Source of the DNA: Meridianimarinicoccus zhengii
GTDB taxonomy: Bacteria; Pseudomonadota; Alphaproteobacteria; Rhodobacterales; Rhodobacteraceae
DNA: 42,918 nucleotides
Direction of reading: 5' to 3'
Assembly (NCBI RefSeq): GCF_003254465.1
Contig: NZ_QDFI01000035.1
Span: forward strand, 1-42,918
Shown here: positions 4,697-42,918 of the stretch, in pieces
Layout: each line of letters begins with the position of its first letter
How positions within the stretch are numbered: position 1 is the stretch's first letter
Notes under the pieces: generated by a model
Databases searched by the model: none
The model's input: only the letters and a program-made list of their open reading frames with translations
What the model was told of the DNA's origin: nothing
Position numbers and translations under genes: made by a program

Positions 4697-5311
4697 TTAT
4701 TCCCTCCAACTGGCAACAATCTTGCCCCTTATGACGATATTGTTTCCGTCCACCACGTGCACCCGCCGGTCGTCTGCCGCAACGCTGGCGGCGACCAGGA
4801 CGGGCGGTTCGAACCTACGCAGCAGCGTGACGGCCACGCCCAGCGTGTGGTCGTATCGCTGGGCGATCACGGTATCGCCCGCGCGGACGTGTTCCGCCGC
4901 GTGCTGGTCCACCGCCATCATGTCGCCCGGCAGCAGGCCCTGCAGGGACATGGCGAGGCTCTTGACCTGCCAGATATCGATGCCGGGGCGATCGAGCCCA
5001 AGCGCCTCGGTCACGCTTTGCGCCTTGCGGCGCTCGGTTTCCTGCCCGCGCCAGACCGCTGCATCGCTGTCGGAAAAACCTGGCTGCAACTCGCGCGCCC
5101 GCGGTTCGTCCAGTGCGCCAGCGCGTTTCAGCACTTCGTCAAGTGGCACTTCCAGGGTTTCGGCAAAGGCCTTCGCCCATTCCAGCGACATGCGTTGCCG
5201 GCCCGTGTAAATGTGAGAGACAACGGATCGATCACGACCCAGCCTTTTGGCTATGTCCGCCGTCGTCACGCCCGCCTTTTTCTGCTGCTTCTTGAACCAC
5301 ATCACATCCAT
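4697..5311 (-). CDS. CI-type phage repressor, XRE HTH plus S24-like domain without catalytic residues
   Basis: The start is taken at ATG 5311 (MDVMWFKKQQKKAGVTTADI); an ATG eight codons upstream and one three codons downstream are alternatives. Residues 12-65 form an XRE helix-turn-helix (TTADIAKRLGRDRSVVSHIY). The C-terminal 90 residues resemble the LexA/S24 fold: GLLPGDMMAVD, VRAGDTVIAQRYD and a closing VIRGKIVASW. However, neither the catalytic Ser-Met pair nor the catalytic Lys is present at the expected places. It should dimerise but not cleave itself under RecA. It faces a Cro-like gene across a short control region, the classic immunity layout, and would keep lytic promoters off. Confidence 0.85.
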   Translation of the reverse strand: MDVMWFKKQQKKAGVTTADIAKRLGRDRSVVSHIYTGRQRMSLEWAKAFAETLEVPLDEVLKRAGALDEPRARELQPGFSDSDAAVWRGQETERRKAQSVTEALGLDRPGIDIWQVKSLAMSLQGLLPGDMMAVDQHAAEHVRAGDTVIAQRYDHTLGVAVTLLRRFEPPVLVAASVAADDRRVHVVDGNNIVIRGKIVASWRE

Positions 5312-5313
5312 GT

Positions 5314-5328
5314 GTGCCAAGTAGGCAC
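5314..5328. promoter_or_regulatory. operator-like palindrome before the repressor start
   Basis: A perfect inverted repeat GTGCC-AAGTA-GGCAC three bases upstream of the repressor ATG. If the repressor mRNA is leaderless (no ribosome site is visible), this dyad would cover its -10 region, as expected for autoregulation. A partial match to one arm (TACTTGAC) recurs on the plus strand at 5366-5373, over the rightward promoter. Confidence 0.5.
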
Positions 5329-5369
5329 TTACCACCCAACTTACTGCTTAGCTTTTCTAACTTTGTTAC

Positions 5370-6067: not shown

Positions 6068-6386
6068 GGAACGACTGAGCACCGAGGAAGCCGCGCTGAT
6101 CAATGCCGTGGGTGCGGTCGCGGCGCGTCTGCCCGAGTGGGACAACGTGCTGATCGAGACGATGCGGATCGTCATCGCGGACGTGCTGCCCGAATGCGAC
6201 CGCGATCACGGGCACCTGGGCCCGGTCTGCACCGCTGGCGACGCGATCCTGGACTGGCCGAGGATGACACCGCAGGACCGCGCCTTTGCCGCCCATCACA
6301 TCCGCGCGGCGGCGGCGGGGATCCTCACCTGGCGCGCGGCCTGCGCCCATGACCGGCGCCGCGCCCGCGCGGGGAACGCGGCATGA
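6060..6386 (+). CDS. hypothetical early protein, 108 residues
   Basis: Starts at ATG 6060 behind a GGAGGG ribosome site located inside the preceding gene and ends in an ATGA overlap with the next. The product (MARERLSTEEAALINAVGAV ... DRAFAAHHIRAAAAGILTWR) is predicted to be all-alpha. Cys and His residues in DVLPECDRDHGHLGPVCTAG could bind a metal, but the spacing matches no known motif. Function unknown. Confidence 0.6.
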   Translation: MARERLSTEEAALINAVGAVAARLPEWDNVLIETMRIVIADVLPECDRDHGHLGPVCTAGDAILDWPRMTPQDRAFAAHHIRAAAAGILTWRAACAHDRRRARAGNAA

Positions 6387-7189
6387 GCGGGTCGCTGCAG
6401 GACCTGTGCGCGCGCCTCGGGGCGGCGCTGGACGCGGCCCGGCGCGTGCACGGCTTCGCGGCCGAGCTGCGCGGCATGGGCTTCCCGGTCAATGTCTCGC
6501 ACGACGGCGACCTGCCGTCGGTGGCGATCAACATCACCGTGGGCACGGATCGCGGCGTGCTGGTGGAAAAGGTGCCGCTGGCGTGCACGATCGTCGGTCT
6601 GCCAGATCCTGAACCTGCACCGAAGAAGACGCCGAACCCTGATCCGGGCCCCGGCGTTCCGGCGACGGCATCGCGCCCGCAGCACCCGTCCGCCTATATC
6701 AAGGGGCCGCTGACGGAGGACGAACGCGCCATCGTGCGCACCATGCTCGACCGAGGCGCGACCGGGAAACAGATCGGCGAGCGCCTGAACCGCGATCCGC
6801 GCCAGTTGGGCGGGATCATCAGCGCGTTGCGCAACCCGAAGAACAAGCGCGGCCCCGCCCCGGCCGCGAAGACCGCGCCCGTCATGGCCGCGCCCAAGGC
6901 CCAGCCGAAGCCCGCGGTATCGCCCGGCCCGAAAGCCCCACCGCCTGCCCCCACGGCTGTACCGACCGTCAAGCCCTTCGTTCGAGACCCGGAATGTGGC
7001 TGGACGCCCGACCAGGACATGACGCTGGTCGAGAGCCTGTCGCTTGGCGTGTCCCTGCCGGTGACCGCCACGAAGATCGGCCGCAGCATCGACGAGTGCA
7101 GGGACAGGTTCCGCGCGCTGCTGCCCGAGCCGAGCTTCGAGGCGCAGACCAATCTGCTGTGCGCCCTGAAGGCGGAGGCGGCGGCGTGA
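6383..7189 (+). CDS. DNA-binding-like protein with HTH and SANT/Myb-like segments
   Basis: A 268-residue protein from ATG 6383. An N-terminal helical region (1-30) is followed by a strand-rich part (VSHDGDLPSVAINITVGTDR). Then comes a Pro/Ala linker and a helix-turn-helix-like stretch TEDERAIVRTMLDRGATGKQ ... IGERLNRDPRQLGG (about 112-150). A second long Pro/Lys/Ala linker leads to a C-terminal SANT/Myb-like domain beginning CGWTPDQDMTLVESLSLGVS with a second helix pair TKIGRSIDECRDRFRALL. Two putative DNA-binding units in one flexible chain just before the primase suggest a replication initiator or accessory factor, possibly the one that reads the iterons downstream. No family name can be given. 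Confidence 0.65.
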   Translation: MSGSLQDLCARLGAALDAARRVHGFAAELRGMGFPVNVSHDGDLPSVAINITVGTDRGVLVEKVPLACTIVGLPDPEPAPKKTPNPDPGPGVPATASRPQHPSAYIKGPLTEDERAIVRTMLDRGATGKQIGERLNRDPRQLGGIISALRNPKNKRGPAPAAKTAPVMAAPKAQPKPAVSPGPKAPPPAPTAVPTVKPFVRDPECGWTPDQDMTLVESLSLGVSLPVTATKIGRSIDECRDRFRALLPEPSFEAQTNLLCALKAEAAA

Positions 7190-8322
7190 GCGAGCGGCAG
7201 ACCTATTCGCTGGACCAGATCAAGGATCTGCTGCTGGCGCAGGTCGAGCACGTGGTCGACCGCTTCGCGCCGCCGGCCGAGGGGAGCTTCACCGACCACC
7301 AGGGGCGGTATTTCACGCTCAACCCGGGCCGCGCCGACCGGTCGGTCGGATCGTTCTATGTTCACATCCGCGGCGCCCGCGCCGGGCAGTGGCGCGACCA
7401 CGCGACCGGGCAGTTCGGCGACGTGCTGGACCTGATCCAGCTTTCCCTGGGCTGCGACACGCGCGAGGCCCTGCGCGAGGCGCGCAACATCCTGGGCCTG
7501 TCGACGATCAGCCCCGAAGACCGCGTTCGCCACGAACGCGCCGCGGCCGAGGCGCGCAAGCGCCGCCAAGAGGCGCAGGCCAAGGCCCGCGAGGATCAGC
7601 AGCGCAAGGCGCAGCGCGCCCACGCCCTGTGGCTGTCCGCACAGGCCAGCCTGCGCGGCACGCCGGTGGAACGGTACCTGGCGGACACGCGCGGGATCGA
7701 CCTGGCGGAGCTGGGGCGCCAGCCGCGCGCGCTGCGCTATCACCGGTCGTGCAGGTATTACCACATGGACCCGGACACCGGCGAGGTGATCGAGGGCAGC
7801 TGGCCCGCGATGCTGGCGATCGTCTGCGGCGCGAACGGACGCGCCATCGCGTGCCACCGGACCTGGCTGGCGCTGCGCCCGGACGGGCGCTGGGACAAGG
7901 CCCCGGTGCCCAAGGCGCGCAAGGTGCTGGGCAACTATGCCGGCGGTGCCGTGATGCTGTGGCGCGGGATCGGTCCGCGCGGCGGCAAGCCCGCCCCGCT
8001 GAGCCAGTGCCCGCCCGACACCCACGTGTACATCACCGAAGGGATCGAGGACGCGCTGTCGGCCGTGATGCTGATGCCCCATGCGCGGGTGATCGCGGCG
8101 ATCAGCCTGTCGAATTTCGGGGGCGTGCCGCTGCCCCCGAACGTGGCGCGCGTCACGCTGGTGGCCGACCAGGACCAGGGCGACCAGGCGCAGGCCGAGC
8201 TGGCCCGCGCCGTGGACCAGCACGCGGCAGCCGGGCGCGAGGTGCGCGTCTGGAAGAACACCATGGGCGGCAAGGATCTGAACGACGCCCTGCGCGCGGC
8301 GCGGGCGAAGGGGGTTGCGTGA
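7186..8322 (+). CDS. Toprim-domain phage primase
   Basis: A 378-residue primase, starting at GTG 7186 within a GTGA overlap. The N-terminal region (FTDHQGRYFTLNPG...GQWRDHATGQFGDVLDLIQL) matches the CHC2-derived, DUF7146-like N-terminus of prophage primases, though no zinc-binding cysteines are seen. A basic coiled stretch (RHERAAAEARKRRQEAQAKA) follows at about 115-150. The Toprim domain has its Glu in YITEGIEDALSAVM (about 281-294) and the acidic D-x-D in LVADQDQGD (about 325-333), the metal-binding residues of primases. It would make RNA primers for the helicase encoded two genes downstream. Confidence 0.85.
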   Translation: MSERQTYSLDQIKDLLLAQVEHVVDRFAPPAEGSFTDHQGRYFTLNPGRADRSVGSFYVHIRGARAGQWRDHATGQFGDVLDLIQLSLGCDTREALREARNILGLSTISPEDRVRHERAAAEARKRRQEAQAKAREDQQRKAQRAHALWLSAQASLRGTPVERYLADTRGIDLAELGRQPRALRYHRSCRYYHMDPDTGEVIEGSWPAMLAIVCGANGRAIACHRTWLALRPDGRWDKAPVPKARKVLGNYAGGAVMLWRGIGPRGGKPAPLSQCPPDTHVYITEGIEDALSAVMLMPHARVIAAISLSNFGGVPLPPNVARVTLVADQDQGDQAQAELARAVDQHAAAGREVRVWKNTMGGKDLNDALRAARAKGVA

Positions 8323-9284
8323 GCGACGACAGTCACATCGAATGGACCGACGCGACATGGAACCCGATCACGGGCTGCACCATGGTCAGCGCGGGCTGCA
8401 CCAACTGCTATGCGATGGGCCTTGCCGCCACGCGCCTGCGCCACCATCCCAGCCGGGCCGGGCTGACGCGCGAGACCGGCGGGCGGCATGTCTGGACCGG
8501 CAAGGTCCGGCTGAACGAACAGTGGCTTGACCAGCCTCTGCGCTGGACCAAGCCGCGGATGATTTTCGTCTGCGCCCATGGCGATTTGTTCCATGAGGCT
8601 GTGCCGGATGAATGGATCGACCGCGTGTTCGCGGTCATGTCGTTGTGCCCGCGTCACACGTTCCAGGTGCTGACGAAGCGGCCGGAGCGCATGCGCGCAT
8701 GGCGGACTGAAAACCGGATCACTCACATCATGGCCGCTGCTGAAGCCGAGATCGACCGGCTGGGATGGGATAGCTGGCCAGCATCGACGCGCGCATGGGA
8801 AGCCCACATCGACGGCTTTCCCAACGTCTGGCTGGGCACGTCGATCGAGGACCAGCCGACCGCCGACGCGCGCATCCCGGACCTGCTGGCCACCCCGGCC
8901 GCGGTGCGGTTCGTGTCGGCCGAACCGCTGCTGGGGCCCGTGGACCTGACCAGCATGGAGCGCAGCGGCGGAACCGGCCTGATGCGACCGCTCGACGGCC
9001 GCTTTCGCACCCTCGACTGGATCATCGTCGGCGGCGAAAGCGGCCCCGGCGCGCGCCCCATGCACCCGGATTGGGCGCGGTCCCTGCGCGACCAGTGCCA
9101 TGCGGCGGGCGTGGCGTTCTTCTTCAAGCAGTGGGGCGGCTGGGCACCGGCATCGGTCGTGATCCCCCATGCCCATCTTCCCGAGGACGCAGACCACATG
9201 GTGCACGCGGTCAAGAAGCTGACCGGGCGATGTCTGGATGGGCGCACATGGGACGAAATGCCGGTCGGCAGCGCCACCCGATGA
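8319..9284 (+). CDS. DUF5131 (phage Gp37/Gp68) family protein
   Basis: A 321-residue protein starting at GTG 8319 in a GTGA overlap. It shows the signature of DUF5131: IEWTDATWNPITGC near the N-terminus, a three-cysteine cluster C-x6-C-x2-C in GCTMVSAGCTNCYA, the segment HGDLFHEAVPDEWIDRVFAV, LTKRPERM, the NVWLGTSIEDQ block, VSAEPLLGPV, and a closing IIVGGESGPGARPMHPDW plus FFFKQWGGW. The Cys cluster suggests an iron-sulphur, radical-SAM-like protein. Members are widespread in phages and prophages with no agreed function. Its place between primase and helicase suggests a role in nucleic-acid metabolism or modification; that is inference. Confidence 0.9.
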   Translation: MSDDSHIEWTDATWNPITGCTMVSAGCTNCYAMGLAATRLRHHPSRAGLTRETGGRHVWTGKVRLNEQWLDQPLRWTKPRMIFVCAHGDLFHEAVPDEWIDRVFAVMSLCPRHTFQVLTKRPERMRAWRTENRITHIMAAAEAEIDRLGWDSWPASTRAWEAHIDGFPNVWLGTSIEDQPTADARIPDLLATPAAVRFVSAEPLLGPVDLTSMERSGGTGLMRPLDGRFRTLDWIIVGGESGPGARPMHPDWARSLRDQCHAAGVAFFFKQWGGWAPASVVIPHAHLPEDADHMVHAVKKLTGRCLDGRTWDEMPVGSATR

Positions 9285-11116
9285 CCCCGCCCGACGACAA
9301 CGTGCACCCGCTGCGCAGCGAGCTGGAGAACGCGCCGACCGTGGCGAAGCCGAAGGGCGACGGCACGAAGGGCGACAGCGGCGGCGGAAAGGGCAAGAAG
9401 CGCACCCGCCAGCCCGGTGAAATCTGGCCGGACTGTCCCGTCCAGGCGTTGGGCATGTCGGGCGACGTGTCGTTCTACCTCGACGTGCGGGGGCAGTTGC
9501 GCGGGGTGGACAACCACACCCTGCAGAAGATGCTGCACGTGTTCGGCGGGCGTACAGCCCTGCTGGCGCACTGGTTTCCCGTCTACGACAAGGAAGGGCT
9601 GCCACGCCCCAACCGGTTCGACCAGTTGTCACTGGCCACGGCCATGATCACCGCGTGCGAGGAACGCGGCATCTGGTCCCCCACGGGACGGATGCGCGAA
9701 GCGGGCTGCTGGACGGACGAAGACGGCAGCCTGATCGTGCATGCGGGCGACGAGGTCCTGATCGGCGGCGCGTGGAAGCCGCCCGGCATCCACGGTGGCA
9801 AGGTCTATGCCGCGTGCAACCCCGCACCCCGCCCGGCAGAACAGGACCGCCAGGCGCTGGCTGGTCTCGAGCTGCTGGAGCTGATCGAGACCTGGAACTG
9901 GCGCAGGCCCGACATCGATCCGCAGCTCGCCCTGGGCATGATCTGCGCCCAGATGCTGGGTGGTGCGCTGGACTGGCGCCCGGTCGGATGGCTGACAGGC
10001 GATGCCGCGACGGGCAAGTCGACGTTCCAGAAGCTGCTGCTGTACGTCCATGGCGGCGAAACCGGCCTGCTGCAGGCAGCGGACGCGACCGAGGCGGGTA
10101 TTCGCAGCGTCATCGGGTTCTCGAGCTTGCCCGTGGCGATCGACGAGCTGGAGCCGAACCCCGAGCAGCCCAGCAAGACCAAGAACGTGGTGGAGCTGGC
10201 GCGGCGTGCATCGTCGGGCGCGCAGATTTTCCGGGGCGGTGCCGACCAGAAGGGCCACCAGAGCAACGCCTATTCGTGTTTCCTGTTCAGCTCGATCCTT
10301 GTGCCGGCCATGCCGCCGCAGGACCGGTCGCGGCTGATCCTTCTGGATCTCGACCGGCTGCCGAAGACGGCGCCGAAGATGACACTGGACGCGCGGCGAT
10401 TGCGGTCGATCGGGGCGGGGCTGCGGCGCCGCCTGATCGACCGCTGGCCCGAGTACCAGGTCAGGCTTGAGACATGGCGCGCCGCCCTGGCCCTGGAAGG
10501 CCAGTCGGGGCGTGGCGCGGACAATTTCGGGACCGTGCTGGCGCTGGCGGACATGGCGCTGCACGACGCGGCGCCTTCGGCCGAGATCCTCGAAAGCTGG
10601 GCCAGCAAGCTGTCGCTGGCCGTGACCGAGGACGCGGCCGAGGTCGGCAGCAACGCCGAGGACATGCTGGTGCACCTGATGTCGCAGGAGATCGATGTCT
10701 GGCGGCGTGGCGAGCGGTTCACCGTGGCGCAGTGGGTGGCCATGGCCGCGCACCTGCCCGGCGCGCGGGAGACCATCGACAGCGCGGACCGCAACACCGC
10801 CAACGACTACCTGGCGCGGTACGGTCTTCGGGTCTATGGCCGCGACGTCGATGCGCGCCTGGCGATCGCCAACAAGCCGCTGCAGGGGCTGCTGGACCTG
10901 TTCGACGGGTCGCTGTGGGCGAATGGCGTCTGGGCGCAGGCGGTGCGCCGCATCGACGACGCGGAACCGGTGAACATGACCCTGAACCGCGTGGCAACGC
11001 GCGGCATGCGCATCCCGCTCAAGGCGATCCCAGGCATTCTGACGTTCCCCATGGACCGCGCACAGCGAGACGGCCCCACACCACCCACACCCGACGAAGA
11101 GGACGGCTTCGCCTGA
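9281..11116 (+). CDS. replicative helicase, SF3/DUF927-like P-loop ATPase
   Basis: A 611-residue protein from ATG 9281 (ATGA overlap). The first 40 residues are a disordered Lys/Gly-rich tail. A middle region (EIWPDCPVQALGMSGDVSFYLD...) resembles the strand-rich N-terminal domain of virus-type helicases. The P-loop GDAATGKSTFQK lies at about 240-251, with a Walker B acidic pair in VAIDELEP (about 285-292) and a sensor-like FLFSSILVPAMPPQDRSRLI (about 333-352). This order fits the DUF927/superfamily 3 helicases that work with a separate primase. The C-terminal third is helical and probably mediates DNA or protein contacts. A likely origin follows immediately. Confidence 0.85.
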   Translation: MTPPDDNVHPLRSELENAPTVAKPKGDGTKGDSGGGKGKKRTRQPGEIWPDCPVQALGMSGDVSFYLDVRGQLRGVDNHTLQKMLHVFGGRTALLAHWFPVYDKEGLPRPNRFDQLSLATAMITACEERGIWSPTGRMREAGCWTDEDGSLIVHAGDEVLIGGAWKPPGIHGGKVYAACNPAPRPAEQDRQALAGLELLELIETWNWRRPDIDPQLALGMICAQMLGGALDWRPVGWLTGDAATGKSTFQKLLLYVHGGETGLLQAADATEAGIRSVIGFSSLPVAIDELEPNPEQPSKTKNVVELARRASSGAQIFRGGADQKGHQSNAYSCFLFSSILVPAMPPQDRSRLILLDLDRLPKTAPKMTLDARRLRSIGAGLRRRLIDRWPEYQVRLETWRAALALEGQSGRGADNFGTVLALADMALHDAAPSAEILESWASKLSLAVTEDAAEVGSNAEDMLVHLMSQEIDVWRRGERFTVAQWVAMAAHLPGARETIDSADRNTANDYLARYGLRVYGRDVDARLAIANKPLQGLLDLFDGSLWANGVWAQAVRRIDDAEPVNMTLNRVATRGMRIPLKAIPGILTFPMDRAQRDGPTPPTPDEEDGFA

Positions 11117-11228
11117 CATGCGCGATCACGGCAGCATCCATGCCCCCGGCGGCTTTGACGGCTTCACCCCGACCCGTGGGTGTGCCATTATTCGCGAAGC
11201 GGGCCTTCCCTTGCGGCTGGGTCCGGGG

Positions 11229-11494
11229 CTACGACGCTCAAGAATTAGGCGTCGTAGGGCTGTCGTAGGGCAAAACCTCTGCAATGTCAGAGGGTTACGC
11301 GCCGCCTACGACGCTACGACGCTACGACACGGTTTTGCCTCACATGTGTGTGCGCGTGCGCGCGCATATGCGGGATTGTGTGTGTCGTACTGTCGTAGCG
11401 TCGTAACTTTCTTATATCTTATTGAAAATAAAGAAAAAGAGGCTACGACAGCCCTACGACGCTACGACACGACATGTGCCTCGAAGTGTCGTAG
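11229..11494. other. putative replication origin: CTACGAC iterons, AT-rich element, Z-DNA-like tract
   Basis: The heptamer CTACGAC occurs seven times on the plus strand (11229, 11306, 11314, 11322, 11443, 11454, 11462) and four times inverted (11251, 11262, 11392, 11488). Near copies are at 11384 (GTCGTAC) and 11400 (GTCGTAA). Three plus copies are head-to-tail with an 8-base period. The block 11404-11438 is almost pure A/T, a likely duplex-unwinding element, and is bordered by iterons. An inverted pair GGCAAAACC (11269-11277) / GGTTTTGCC (11331-11339) encloses the triple repeat, and CCTCTG...CAGAGG (11276-11293) can form a hairpin. It directly follows the helicase gene. The stretch 11117-11548 has no credible gene. 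Confidence 0.65.
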
Positions 11495-11548
11495 CAACCT
11501 GCCAAGTCATTGGAACCATTGGAAACGCTCAAAAGGGTGGTGTTTCTG

Positions 11549-12220
11549 ATGGCTGGTCCGCAGAACGGATACGAGCAGTTGGCGCGGGATGCAGCGGCCC
11601 GGATCGATCGGGCGCGGGCGACGGGCGAGCAGCTGACCTTCCTGCCTGATGAGCCGCGCCCTGGCGGTGCCGTGGCGACGCGCGGCGATGGCGCGGGCGA
11701 CAGCGGGTCGGGCAAGCGCGGCAAAGGCCGCGTGTCGAGCCAGATGCGAGACTGGCTGGAGCATCGCGGCTACCGGCTGCCCGAGGACGTCCTGGTGCAG
11801 ATGGCGGGACTTGCCAGCCACGAGGATGCTGTCCTGACCGCCATGCAGGCGGCGGAGCGGGTGCTGAACTGGGCCTACGATCCGGGCGACGATCCGCTGC
11901 GCGCCCAGAAGCGGCCCAGCGAGACCAAGCGGATCGAGGTCTTCATGCAGCTCTACACGATCCAGCTGCGCGCGGCGGAGGCGCTGCTGCCCTATGGCGC
12001 GCCGAAGGCCACCCCGGATGTCAACGTGAACCCGAATGTGACGTTCGTGGTGCCCATGCAGCCGTCTGGCGCTGCGGATCGGTCCGGTTCGGCGCGGGAT
12101 GTCACGCCGCGTCCCGGCAGTCGGATGGCCCCGCCGCCGCTGCCCAGCAAGAACAAGCAAAATCAACAGGTTAGCGGCGCTTCGGACGATGCGTCGGACA
12201 CGGACAGTCGGACGGAGTGA
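11549..12220 (+). CDS. terS: putative terminase small subunit
   Basis: A 223-residue protein; ATG 11549 is chosen over an upstream start at 11510 because AGGGTGG precedes it and the product then begins MAGPQNGYEQLARDAAARID. After a low-complexity Gly/Arg segment (45-65) comes a helical core (SSQMRDWLEHRGYRLPEDVL, HEDAVLTAMQAAERVLNWAY, ETKRIEVFMQLYTIQLRAAE). A short strand NVNPNVTFVVP and a disordered tail follow, as often seen in small terminases. Its position before terL supports the role of recognising the packaging site. The sequence itself is not diagnostic, and a DNA-binding function at the adjacent iterons cannot be excluded. Confidence 0.6.
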   Translation: MAGPQNGYEQLARDAAARIDRARATGEQLTFLPDEPRPGGAVATRGDGAGDSGSGKRGKGRVSSQMRDWLEHRGYRLPEDVLVQMAGLASHEDAVLTAMQAAERVLNWAYDPGDDPLRAQKRPSETKRIEVFMQLYTIQLRAAEALLPYGAPKATPDVNVNPNVTFVVPMQPSGAADRSGSARDVTPRPGSRMAPPPLPSKNKQNQQVSGASDDASDTDSRTE

Positions 12221-12225
12221 CTAAG

Positions 12226-12462
12226 ATGCTGGAAAACATGGGGAAAAATGGGGTTCGGCAGTTGATGGGAAATCCATTGCCTTCCGCCTTCGGTGCAGCG
12301 GATCAGGCCGCAGCCCCTGCCCTGGTGGCAGGCTCCGCCGCAGATCGCGCGCGGGTCGGATTTGACATAACACCCGCCCAGCACGGGGGGGGGCACCCCC
12401 CGTCGCGATATCACATGCCCCCCGCTCCGACCCCATTCAAGGTTTCGGGGGGCTTCGCATGA
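12226..12462 (+). CDS. possible small protein between terS and terL
   Basis: A 78-codon frame from ATG 12226, with GGAG eight bases upstream, ending in an ATGA overlap with terL. The product (MLENMGKNGVRQLMGNPLPS...) is rich in Ala, Pro and Gly in its second half, where the DNA holds a run of nine G and two strong hairpins. It may be a real small gene or a structured intergenic region that happens to be open. The reading with its own ribosome site and terL coupling tips slightly to a gene. Confidence 0.4.
   Translation: MLENMGKNGVRQLMGNPLPSAFGAADQAAAPALVAGSAADRARVGFDITPAQHGGGHPPSRYHMPPAPTPFKVSGGFA
12383..12453 (+). promoter_or_regulatory. two G/C hairpins directly before terL
   Basis: ACGGGGGG (12383-12390) pairs with CCCCCCGT (12396-12403) across a five-base loop, and contains nine G in a row. 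Next, GCCCCCCG (12417-12424) pairs with CGGGGGGC (12446-12453), just before terL ATG 12459. No T-runs follow. They may modulate terL translation or mark the packaging start (pac/cos) often found near terS; either is inference. Confidence 0.4.
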
Positions 12463-14204
12463 TCGGCGCGAACCGGATCACATCGGCATCGGGTCGGGGG
12501 GCACTCCGGGCTGCACCCGAACGGGGTCTGGGGGGAAGCGTCCCTGCCCGGCCGGAAACCGCGCCAGAGGCGCTGGCGGCGATGGACGCGATTGCCACGC
12601 TAGACCTGCCCGACGCGGGCGACAAGCTGGATCTTGCAGCCCCGACATTTCCCGGCCCGATCGCCGAGGCCTATTACTGGTCGAACGCCGACGTGATCGG
12701 CATCTGCGGGCCCGTCGGGTCGGGCAAGACCACCACCAAGAACAAGCGCAAGCTGCGCCGCGCGATGGAGATGCCCCGGTCGGTGATCGACGGCGTGCGC
12801 CGCTACAAGTGCGTCTACATCCGGGAGACTTACCGGCAGCTCTGGTCCACCACGATCCCCAGCTACCTGGAGACTTTCCCCAAGTCGCTGGGCACCTGGT
12901 CGGGCGGACGCGGCGACCCGGTGACCCATGTGATCCACTTCGAGGACGCGCACGGCCCGATCGAGTTCACCGCCGAGTTCATGGCCTTTGGCGACGATCC
13001 CATCGCGTCCATGCGCGGCATGCAGGCCACCGACATCGACCTGAACGAAGCGGACACGATGGTGGTGGAGATCCTGACCGTGGGGATCGGCCGGATCGAC
13101 CGCTGGCCCGCGCGCCAGCACTTCGAAGGCTACCCGCCAGAGCTGCGATCCTATGGCGTCATCGACTGCGACTTCAACGCGCCGGACGAGGACAACTGGG
13201 TCTACAAGGTGTTCTACGACCGGGAGGAAAGCCGCCGGATGGCGCAGATGCTGTCCTCCGGCCTGCCCGAAGGCACGCGGCCCATCGAGATCGCGTTCTA
13301 CAACCAGCCGGGCTACGGCGAGGACGGCTGCGAGAACCTGCAGAACCTGAGCCCGACCTATTACCCGCGCCAGATCGCCGCCATGCGGCTGGCCGGGCGC
13401 GGCGACATGATCGACCGGCTGGTCTACAACAAGCCGACTTACCTGCGCGCGGGCGAGCCGGTGTTCCGGCGGGAGTTCAACCGCCGCATCCACGTCGCGG
13501 ACAAGACGATCGGCGTTGACCGCAGCGCGCCGTTGCGGCTGGGGTTGGACCAGGGCTTCAAGGGCGCGGCCGTGATCGGCCAGTTCCTGCCCCCGTTCCA
13601 CTGGCACATCCTGGCCGAGCTGTTCTTCGCCGACGAACGGCTGATGGCGCGCGTGTTCGGCGCGCGGCTGGCCGACCTGCTGTCGCAGCCGCGTTTCGCC
13701 GGAGTGCGGATCGAAGGCGGCTGGGGCGACATGGCGGGTGAACACGGCGCGAGCCAGGCGGCGGACGAAAACGACACATGGAACCGCATCGTGGGCAAGG
13801 AAGCCGGGTTCACCGTGCGCCCCCAGCGGATCGGCACCAACCGCATCCAGCCGCGCCTAGAGGCCGTGCGCGCGCCGTTGGAATACCTGGACGGCGGACG
13901 GCCGGGCCTGCTGATCGACCCATCCTGCAAGTTCCTGATCCGGGGGTTCGAGGCCCGCTATGTCTGGTCCGATGCCCCCGACGCATCGGGCGGCAAGCGC
14001 AAGGTGCCCGACAAAAGCCTGCCCGAGGCGAACCCGATGGACGCGCTGCAGTACCTGCTGTTGTCCGAACATCGCGGCGACGGGCTGAGCCCCCAGACAA
14101 CCCGATCCCGGCCCGGCATGGGCCATCCTGACCGCCCGGCCATGCCCGGCGCGCCGCGCGGTCTGTCGGCGGGACATGACGTCCTGAACCCCTACGGAGG
14201 CTAA
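12459..14204 (+). CDS. terL: terminase large subunit
   Basis: A 581-residue packaging motor that pumps DNA into the prohead and cuts concatemers. The ATPase domain carries Walker A GPVGSGKTT at about 84-92 and a Walker B-like acidic strand TDIDLNEADTM around 191-201. The nuclease domain starts with the metal-binding Asp in RLGLDQGFKG (about 361-370) and has later acidic residues in IEGGWGDMAGEH and in PDKSLPEANPMDALQYLL near the C-terminus. The first 40 residues are disordered; an internal ATG at 12582 is an alternative start. The last codons (NPYGG) overlap an 18-bp sequence repeated at 14810. Confidence 0.93.
   Translation: MIGANRITSASGRGALRAAPERGLGGSVPARPETAPEALAAMDAIATLDLPDAGDKLDLAAPTFPGPIAEAYYWSNADVIGICGPVGSGKTTTKNKRKLRRAMEMPRSVIDGVRRYKCVYIRETYRQLWSTTIPSYLETFPKSLGTWSGGRGDPVTHVIHFEDAHGPIEFTAEFMAFGDDPIASMRGMQATDIDLNEADTMVVEILTVGIGRIDRWPARQHFEGYPPELRSYGVIDCDFNAPDEDNWVYKVFYDREESRRMAQMLSSGLPEGTRPIEIAFYNQPGYGEDGCENLQNLSPTYYPRQIAAMRLAGRGDMIDRLVYNKPTYLRAGEPVFRREFNRRIHVADKTIGVDRSAPLRLGLDQGFKGAAVIGQFLPPFHWHILAELFFADERLMARVFGARLADLLSQPRFAGVRIEGGWGDMAGEHGASQAADENDTWNRIVGKEAGFTVRPQRIGTNRIQPRLEAVRAPLEYLDGGRPGLLIDPSCKFLIRGFEARYVWSDAPDASGGKRKVPDKSLPEANPMDALQYLLLSEHRGDGLSPQTTRSRPGMGHPDRPAMPGAPRGLSAGHDVLNPYGG
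14185..14202 (+). repeat. 18-bp direct repeat, copy 1 (terL 3' end and ribosome site)
   Basis: TGAACCCCTACGGAGGCT, identical to 14810-14827. This copy encodes the last residues of terL (NPYGG) and supplies the GGAGG for the DUF2829 gene. Confidence 0.9.
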
Positions 14205-42799: not shown

Positions 42800-42918
42800 A
42801 ATCCGGGACGCGGCAAGCTGACCGATGTCAAAGACTGGGTGCGGCGCCGGATCGCGGCCGCCCCGACCTCACGATCGATGAACTGACGGCGGAACTTGCT
42901 GCCGACCACGGGTTGAAG
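42800..42918 (+). mobile_element. internal IS630 transposase fragment joined to the DUF3987 gene
   Basis: Bases 42800-42859 are the exact reverse complement of 1-60, encoding GRGKLTDVKDWVRRRIAA of the same transposase. They continue with codons for DLTIDELTAELAADHGLK, the next stretch of an IS630 transposase. The first 55 or so codons and the terminal repeat are absent. Within GCCGCCCCGACC one base appears to be missing relative to an uninterrupted frame, so the two parts are in different frames. The downstream part is in frame with DUF3987. The fragment may result from a deletion next to an IS copy, or from an assembly join. Confidence 0.7.

Follow-up and report, generated by a model that had tools for sequence, protein, structure and literature searches.

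The stretch analysed here, referred to as the window, is the 42,918-nucleotide contig NZ_QDFI01000035.1 of Meridianimarinicoccus zhengii (assembly GCF_003254465.1). Between the gene of an AAA+ helicase and that of a putative small terminase subunit (TerS), it contains a block built from repeats of the heptamer CTACGAC (Table 1). The array begins 113 bases past the helicase stop codon and ends just short of the TerS start. The exact heptamer occurs 20 times in the whole window, against 1.88 expected and a maximum of 6 in 100 shuffles; the nine occurrences outside the array are isolated, dispersed single copies. The count within the block bears out a first-pass annotation of this DNA, which had listed eleven exact copies, seven direct and four inverted, and at least two near copies. 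The 8-base period it gave for three copies is also right (11306, 11314 and 11322), and the doubled word CTACGACGCTACGAC occurs three times in the 4.6-Mb host assembly, every time inside the array. An inverted pair does enclose the copies as described, but it is exact over 8 bases (GCTACGAC/GTCGTAGC) rather than 9, and the array contains longer inverted pairs, including a perfect one of 20 bases (11249-11268 with 11443-11462). The block previously called A/T-only is A/T-rich, with a longest pure A/T run of 8 bases; it lies between the copy that ends at 11406 and the one that starts at 11443. A 143-residue open reading frame (ORF; 11118-11549) crosses the array. It is no evidence for coding, because ORFs spanning the arrays of the 112 related loci described below are no longer than in shuffled sequences (median 54.5 versus 57.0 residues; above expectation in 53 of 112).

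Table 1. Features of the window around the CTACGAC array.
Feature	Position	Strand	Details
Iteron array, proposed replication origin	11229..11494		Order + -- +++, tract, --- +++ -; 11 exact copies (plus strand: 11229, 11306, 11314, 11322, 11443, 11454, 11462; minus strand: 11251, 11262, 11392, 11488) and 2 with one mismatch (11384, 11400)
Left half, six copies	11229..11328		11229+, 11251-, 11262-, 11306+, 11314+, 11322+; centres 124.5, 102.5, 91.5, 47.5, 39.5 and 31.5 bases left of the tract midpoint, 11356.5
Right half, seven copies	11384..11494		11384-, 11392-, 11400-, 11443+, 11454+, 11462+, 11488-; centres 30.5, 38.5, 46.5, 89.5, 100.5, 108.5 and 134.5 bases right of the midpoint
Alternating purine-pyrimidine tract, Z-DNA-like, dyad centre	11341..11372		32 bases, uninterrupted
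A/T-rich block, proposed unwinding element	~11415..11439		22 of 25 bases A/T; at 0.74 of the array
AAA+ helicase, 611 residues, proposed self-loading initiator	9281..11116	+	Fold like SCCmec Cch and SaPI helicases
Helicase C-terminal domain, residues 455-596, proposed iteron-binding domain	10643..11068	+	
Helicase residues 511-530, word-tracking segment	10811..10870	+	Partial correlation 0.213
Helicase residues 562-579, two strands, word-tracking	10964..11017	+	Residues 562-578: partial correlation 0.216, p 0.001
Word-independent element	11167..11227		CCCCGACCC at 11167-11175 and GGGTCCGGG at 11219-11227, 43 bases apart
Toprim primase (DUF7146 and Toprim_3), probable helicase partner	7186..8322	+	
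Helix-turn-helix (HTH) protein, earlier initiator candidate, unsupported	6383..7189	+	
Putative small terminase subunit TerS, context	11549..12220	+	Named from its place before TerL
Large terminase subunit TerL, context and control protein	12459..14204	+	phrog_2

The copies are arranged with mirror symmetry about an alternating purine-pyrimidine tract, and both imperfect copies occupy mirror positions in this dyad. The tract and the symmetry had been overlooked in the first-pass annotation.

Loci encoding related helicases were gathered from viral contigs, bacterial genomes and phage records, one set of matches being the best 80 of 167. A first scan of bacterial genome contigs returned no relative, and an alignment-based scan found relatives. 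Two loci with fragmentary or weak helicase matches (L013 and L014) were excluded from all counts, and L004-L009, whose contigs are identical to those of L028, L030-L032, L081 and L082, were counted once. A strong array of a single short word lies near the helicase gene or just before TerS in 112 of the 130 loci, near-duplicates included. Among 1280 random 1-kb regions, 16 reached the same threshold, one of them being a true array (L077); the chance rate of the array search is somewhat higher than that of this control, because up to two regions were inspected per locus. In a position-blind scan of the whole loci, the best cluster surpassed five shuffles in 107 loci, and in 91 of these it was the gap array. 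Removal of helicases within 6% distance left 90 of the 112 array loci, and the 90 arrays fall into 40 word classes by single linkage, with a median of 10.5 copies (range 5-14) and a median span of 262 bases (range 154-333). Alphaproteobacteria predominate among the 45 loci for which an organism is named. The earlier proposal had asked whether related prophages conserve the heptamers, and had named the retention of the replication genes without the repeats as the finding that would speak against an origin. Most relatives keep the array and its layout, but with a different word.

A gapped CTACGAC pattern had no match among the viral contigs. A gapped CCACAAC pattern matched nine viral stretches, four of them contigs already present in the helicase search; a profile identifies the helicase in eight of the nine, and the remaining one starts in what appears by eye to be a helicase C-terminus. 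One locus (L099) has, separate from its CACAACG array, a dense block of 29 copies of CCGAGGC located 3601-4017 bases past the helicase match. In nine named phages the gap downstream of the helicase was examined, and in Acinetobacter phage Acjo_20 the upstream gap too. Acjo_20 carries 12 copies of GTTACA upstream of its primase-helicase, and Bdellovibrio phage phi1422 carries 11 of GGTAACA directly after its own; in the gap examined, two of the other seven have weak repeats and five have none. No convincing array was found at L142 and L011, where a distant helicase of the family is followed by a gene that looks ParA-like by eye, as in a plasmid or phage-plasmid.

The geometry of the arrays is more constant than their words. 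Strand order is largely alike across arrays with different words, and in 88 of the 90 arrays the longest alternating run is longer than the average for random segments drawn from that locus, its centre falling at 0.48 of the array (quartiles 0.45-0.52). Alternating tracts of at least 16 bases are present in 64 of the 90, compared with 10 occurrences in the 943,733 bases that do not belong to arrays. The 25-base stretch richest in A/T sits at 0.745 of the array (quartiles 0.69-0.78) and is above background in all 90. CG/GC steps make up 45% of the tracts and CA/TG/AC/GT steps 42%; both kinds of step favour Z-DNA, which the central tract may form. A conserved Z-DNA-like tract in the middle of an origin is unexpected, and a literature search found no role for one at that position. 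The mirror layout was analysed in 80 arrays, after exclusion of 10 that lack a 12-base tract or have too few copies, with the nearest left copy called plus by construction. In the left half, plus copies lie mostly 30-50, minus copies 80-110 and further plus copies 100-130 bases from the tract centre; the right half has minus copies at 20-50, plus copies at 80-110 and minus copies at 110-130. The mirrored sets mostly hold four to six copies, six per side being the commonest count (21 of 80 arrays). This layout is a sequence-level hint of two rings loaded head to head.

The array word was compared with the neighbouring proteins in 75 non-redundant loci that have helicase, primase, TerS and TerL (2775 pairs; 15 of the 90 loci lack one of the four). 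Word distance correlates with protein distance at 0.348 for the helicase and 0.351 for its C-terminal part, and at 0.235-0.245 for TerS, TerL and the primase. The partial values separate the proteins further: 0.222 for the helicase (p 0.002), 0.04 for the primase, 0.008 for TerL and 0.007 for TerS (p 0.43 given the helicase). In a stricter set of 60 loci the helicase C-terminus reaches 0.258, versus 0.02 or less for the others. These correlations are modest and come from related sequences, in which label permutation leaves some shared ancestry. Where array and helicase are over 700 bases apart (13 loci), helicase residues 501-611 still give 0.627, versus 0.345 for TerS (raw values, no permutation test). 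For the HTH protein, which the first-pass annotation had considered a likely initiator, relatives could be detected at just 21 of the 112 array loci; in the subset available for it (19 loci, 171 pairs) it gives 0.098, compared with 0.398 for the helicase C-terminus and 0.332 for the primase. The other candidate, the protein encoded at 11549, is the putative TerS, which contributes nothing further when the helicase is taken into account.

Scanning along the helicase in 89 loci (L109 excluded) revealed clear peaks only at residues 511-530 and 556-590 (partial correlation 0.20-0.21; next windows 0.11). The top column, 567, reaches 0.230, against a maximum of 0.212 in 200 permutations; the second, 415 (0.195), falls outside both segments, and the best columns elsewhere are 0.168 in TerL, 0.142 in the primase and 0.116 in TerS. 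In the structural model, residues 562-568 and 571-579 form adjacent strands that we read as a beta hairpin. The signal extends beyond it, as the rest of the helicase retains 0.207 given residues 562-578. Inspection by eye, which did not test the motifs individually, found AGQR in five of six CCACAAC-type rows (L030 excepted), N/ARV in all three CTACGAC rows, SSLT, ASLT or QSLT in the five AGAAC rows, and GRxEW in all three TTCCCAA rows, yet also, as HRNEW, in L094 with GTTTCA. The word thus appears to follow the helicase, above all its two C-terminal segments, rather than TerS, TerL or the HTH protein, and the primase contributes little. Because it tracks the helicase across relatives, enzyme and DNA seem to change together. 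Binding of the iterons by the C-terminal domain is predicted from this tracking and, of the three proteins that had been put forward for binding tests (those encoded at 6383, 9281 and 11549), the evidence points to the helicase at 9281.

The helicase corresponds to the Rep/Cch-type AAA+ initiators of the replicons of Staphylococcus aureus pathogenicity islands (SaPIs) and phage-inducible chromosomal islands (PICIs). The best fold match of its model is Cch of the staphylococcal cassette chromosome mec (SCCmec), from which it differs in sequence (13% identity over the aligned part), and the fold is also similar to that of the SaPI5 helicase. No convincing match came from a profile search against solved sequences (the best, with an E value of 0.023, was an unrelated protein; Cch reached 0.91). 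The C-terminal domain was considered as a possible winged-helix DNA-binding domain; searched alone, it gave no Foldseek match at E <= 0.001. The DUF927 model (Pfam PF06048) scores 22.0 bits, against a curated cut-off of 22.6, and covers 59 of 284 profile positions.

Taken together, the data indicate that the block is very probably the replication origin of a prophage, of the SaPI/PICI type, and that it would be bound by the C-terminal domain of the adjacent helicase. An initiator-controlled iteron origin, as the first-pass annotation proposed, therefore seems the best-supported reading of the sequence, whereas neither of its initiator candidates holds. According to the mechanism we envisage, the helicase encoded just upstream would act as its own origin-binding protein, the C-terminal domain reading the heptamer. 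The mirrored sets of copies would load two helicase rings, head to head, about the alternating tract; the strands would first separate at the A/T-rich block in the right arm, and the Toprim primase would then prime bidirectional synthesis. A change in the reading segments of the helicase would be followed by an array-wide change of the heptamer, with the geometry held constant. Binding by the helicase, the number of rings, the site of melting, the direction of synthesis and the status of the block as sole origin are what we infer from this arrangement. A wider proposal, which we advance tentatively and hold at slightly under even chances, is that such arrays represent a widespread class of phage origins in which the word varies freely under a fixed grammar: each would be a dyad, ideally with six sites in either half (one for each subunit of two head-to-head rings), arranged about a Z-DNA-forming centre. 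The word would be largely set by the two C-terminal segments, and the roughly 40 natural pairings of protein and DNA would amount to a readable recognition code.

The cumulative GC skew rises gently through the block with no extremum at the array and therefore gives the origin no support. The main observation that an origin alone leaves unexplained is the position of the array in 16 of 101 loci, where it stays with TerS at a distance of over 700 bases from the helicase; this would be understandable if the array sat at an operon boundary.

In a composite arrangement, compatible with the origin, a neighbouring inverted pair and promoter-like box would couple replication to late transcription or packaging. 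We regard it as possible, though on balance unlikely. Immediately upstream of the array, a -10-like box, GCCATTAT (11184-11191), lies between CCCCGACCC and GGGTCCGGG. The pair pattern, CCC..ACCC / GGGT..GGG, occurs in 50 of the 112 array loci, compared with 20 of 2240 random segments, often with a spacing of 42-54 bases, and the box lies between its arms in the window and the aligned relatives. It is separate from the array, and its own sequence remains constant while the array word changes. Pair and box are possibly a promoter with its operator, and the pair may be part of a promoter from which transcription crosses the origin; on the other side, the box is only a putative promoter element and the pair pattern is missing from 62 of the 112 loci.

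The array could instead be a pac- or cos-like packaging site bound by the putative TerS encoded just downstream. Its end lies a median of 50 bases ahead of the TerS ORF (101 loci), and the 16 loci that keep it beside TerS fit this role. However, the failure of TerS to track the word once the helicase is considered, also in the strict set (0.02), argues against packaging, as do 12 loci in which the array is no more than 700 bases from the helicase and over 400 bases away from TerS. Two further cases separate the array from the terminase. L030 and L031 encode helicases that are 98% identical and have the array in common, whereas their TerS proteins are only 67% identical: TerS diverged and the array word remained unchanged. 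In a Micavibrio contig (L126, 1570-7778), a minimal integrative element of 6.1 kb, inserted in a tRNA-Ser gene and bounded by a 14-base direct repeat, carries an integrase, the helicase and a few small genes, with ten copies of TGGGACA upstream of the helicase gene; three further proteins encoded there have no family. Family profiles and Pfam recognise no terminase in it; therefore array and helicase travel together without recognised packaging genes. A packaging site is, in consequence, highly improbable.

Slightly more improbable again is an operator for a transcription factor controlling the packaging or late operon. The array does lie between the replication and the packaging genes, with the promoter-like box and its inverted pair immediately upstream, but it is found upstream of the helicase gene in L126 and Acjo_20, the HTH protein fails to track the word, and the inverted pair is a separate element that keeps its sequence while the word changes. 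Least probable of all is a structured RNA or single-strand origin folding through the inverted copies: the block, when treated as single-stranded DNA, folds much better than its shuffled versions (z -9.05), but any array with inverted copies folds, and the tracking of a protein domain favours duplex binding.

The first-pass annotation could name nothing that the repeat and its likely initiator match; the layout of the proposed origin nevertheless resembles the origins of SaPIs and PICIs. According to PMC6092414 and PMC7581432, such elements (SaPIbov1, EcCICFT073) encode a primase and an initiator helicase and have their origin just 3' of the helicase gene, with sets of short iterons around an A/T-rich region (the primary paper on the SaPI origin being Ubeda 2007, as cited in PMC7581432). 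PMC6092414 states that no other replicon shares this organisation. The window has a primase, an initiator helicase and several short iterons directly 3' of the helicase gene, in two sets that flank an A/T-rich region. Replicons of this type are further characterised by iteron binding through the helicase C-terminal domain, which for the window is predicted from the word tracking of residues 511-530 and 556-590, and by autonomous replication from rep plus ori. It differs in that the loci here are prophages with their own terminase, with a dyad about an alternating tract and 40 word classes, and in that the arrays of L126 and Acjo_20 sit upstream of the helicase. A PICI as an element lacks its own TerL and structural genes. 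The window encodes TerL and a head-tail adaptor and is thus a prophage whose replicon is of the PICI type. PMC7581432 describes just three iterons for Cch2.

Other known systems are less similar. Phage P4 has iterons in ori and crr, and its primase is fused to the helicase. Its alpha protein, which PMC6092414 presents as a helicase-type initiator with its own ori site, resembles in this respect the initiator proposed here. At E 0.01 the window helicase gives no match to the P4-family model TIGR01613; one relative (L120) matches it weakly, below the cut-off. Iteron plasmids of the RepE/RepA type carry repeated initiator sites beside an A/T-rich block; in the window, by contrast, the initiator appears to be the helicase itself, and the exact form of the DnaA box consensus, TTWTNCACA, is absent (0.65 expected by chance; imperfect boxes not searched). 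A literature search limited to open-access papers found no layout like that of the window in tailed phages. What appears to be new is the spread through prophages, a word diversity that maps to one segment of a protein, the mirror-image geometry and the Z-DNA-like centre. A satellite-type self-loading replicon would here be placed in prophages, and the survey provides a large natural set of origin words paired with helicase sequences, which makes origin specificity and the joint change of initiator and origin directly testable.

Among the neighbouring genes, relatives of the primase are present in 102 of the 112 array loci. The protein encoded at 11549 matches no family model and is called a putative TerS because of its place before TerL. 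Between the primase and the helicase lies a DUF5131 gene (phrog_2045; ~8328-9284), a family found in just 3 of the 130 loci, the window included. On the minus strand, integrase-like (1472-2890) and repressor-like (4697-5335) genes are consistent with a temperate phage. The first 57 bases of the contig recur by eye, reverse-complemented, near 42918; both ends may lie in copies of one repeat at which the contig was cut.
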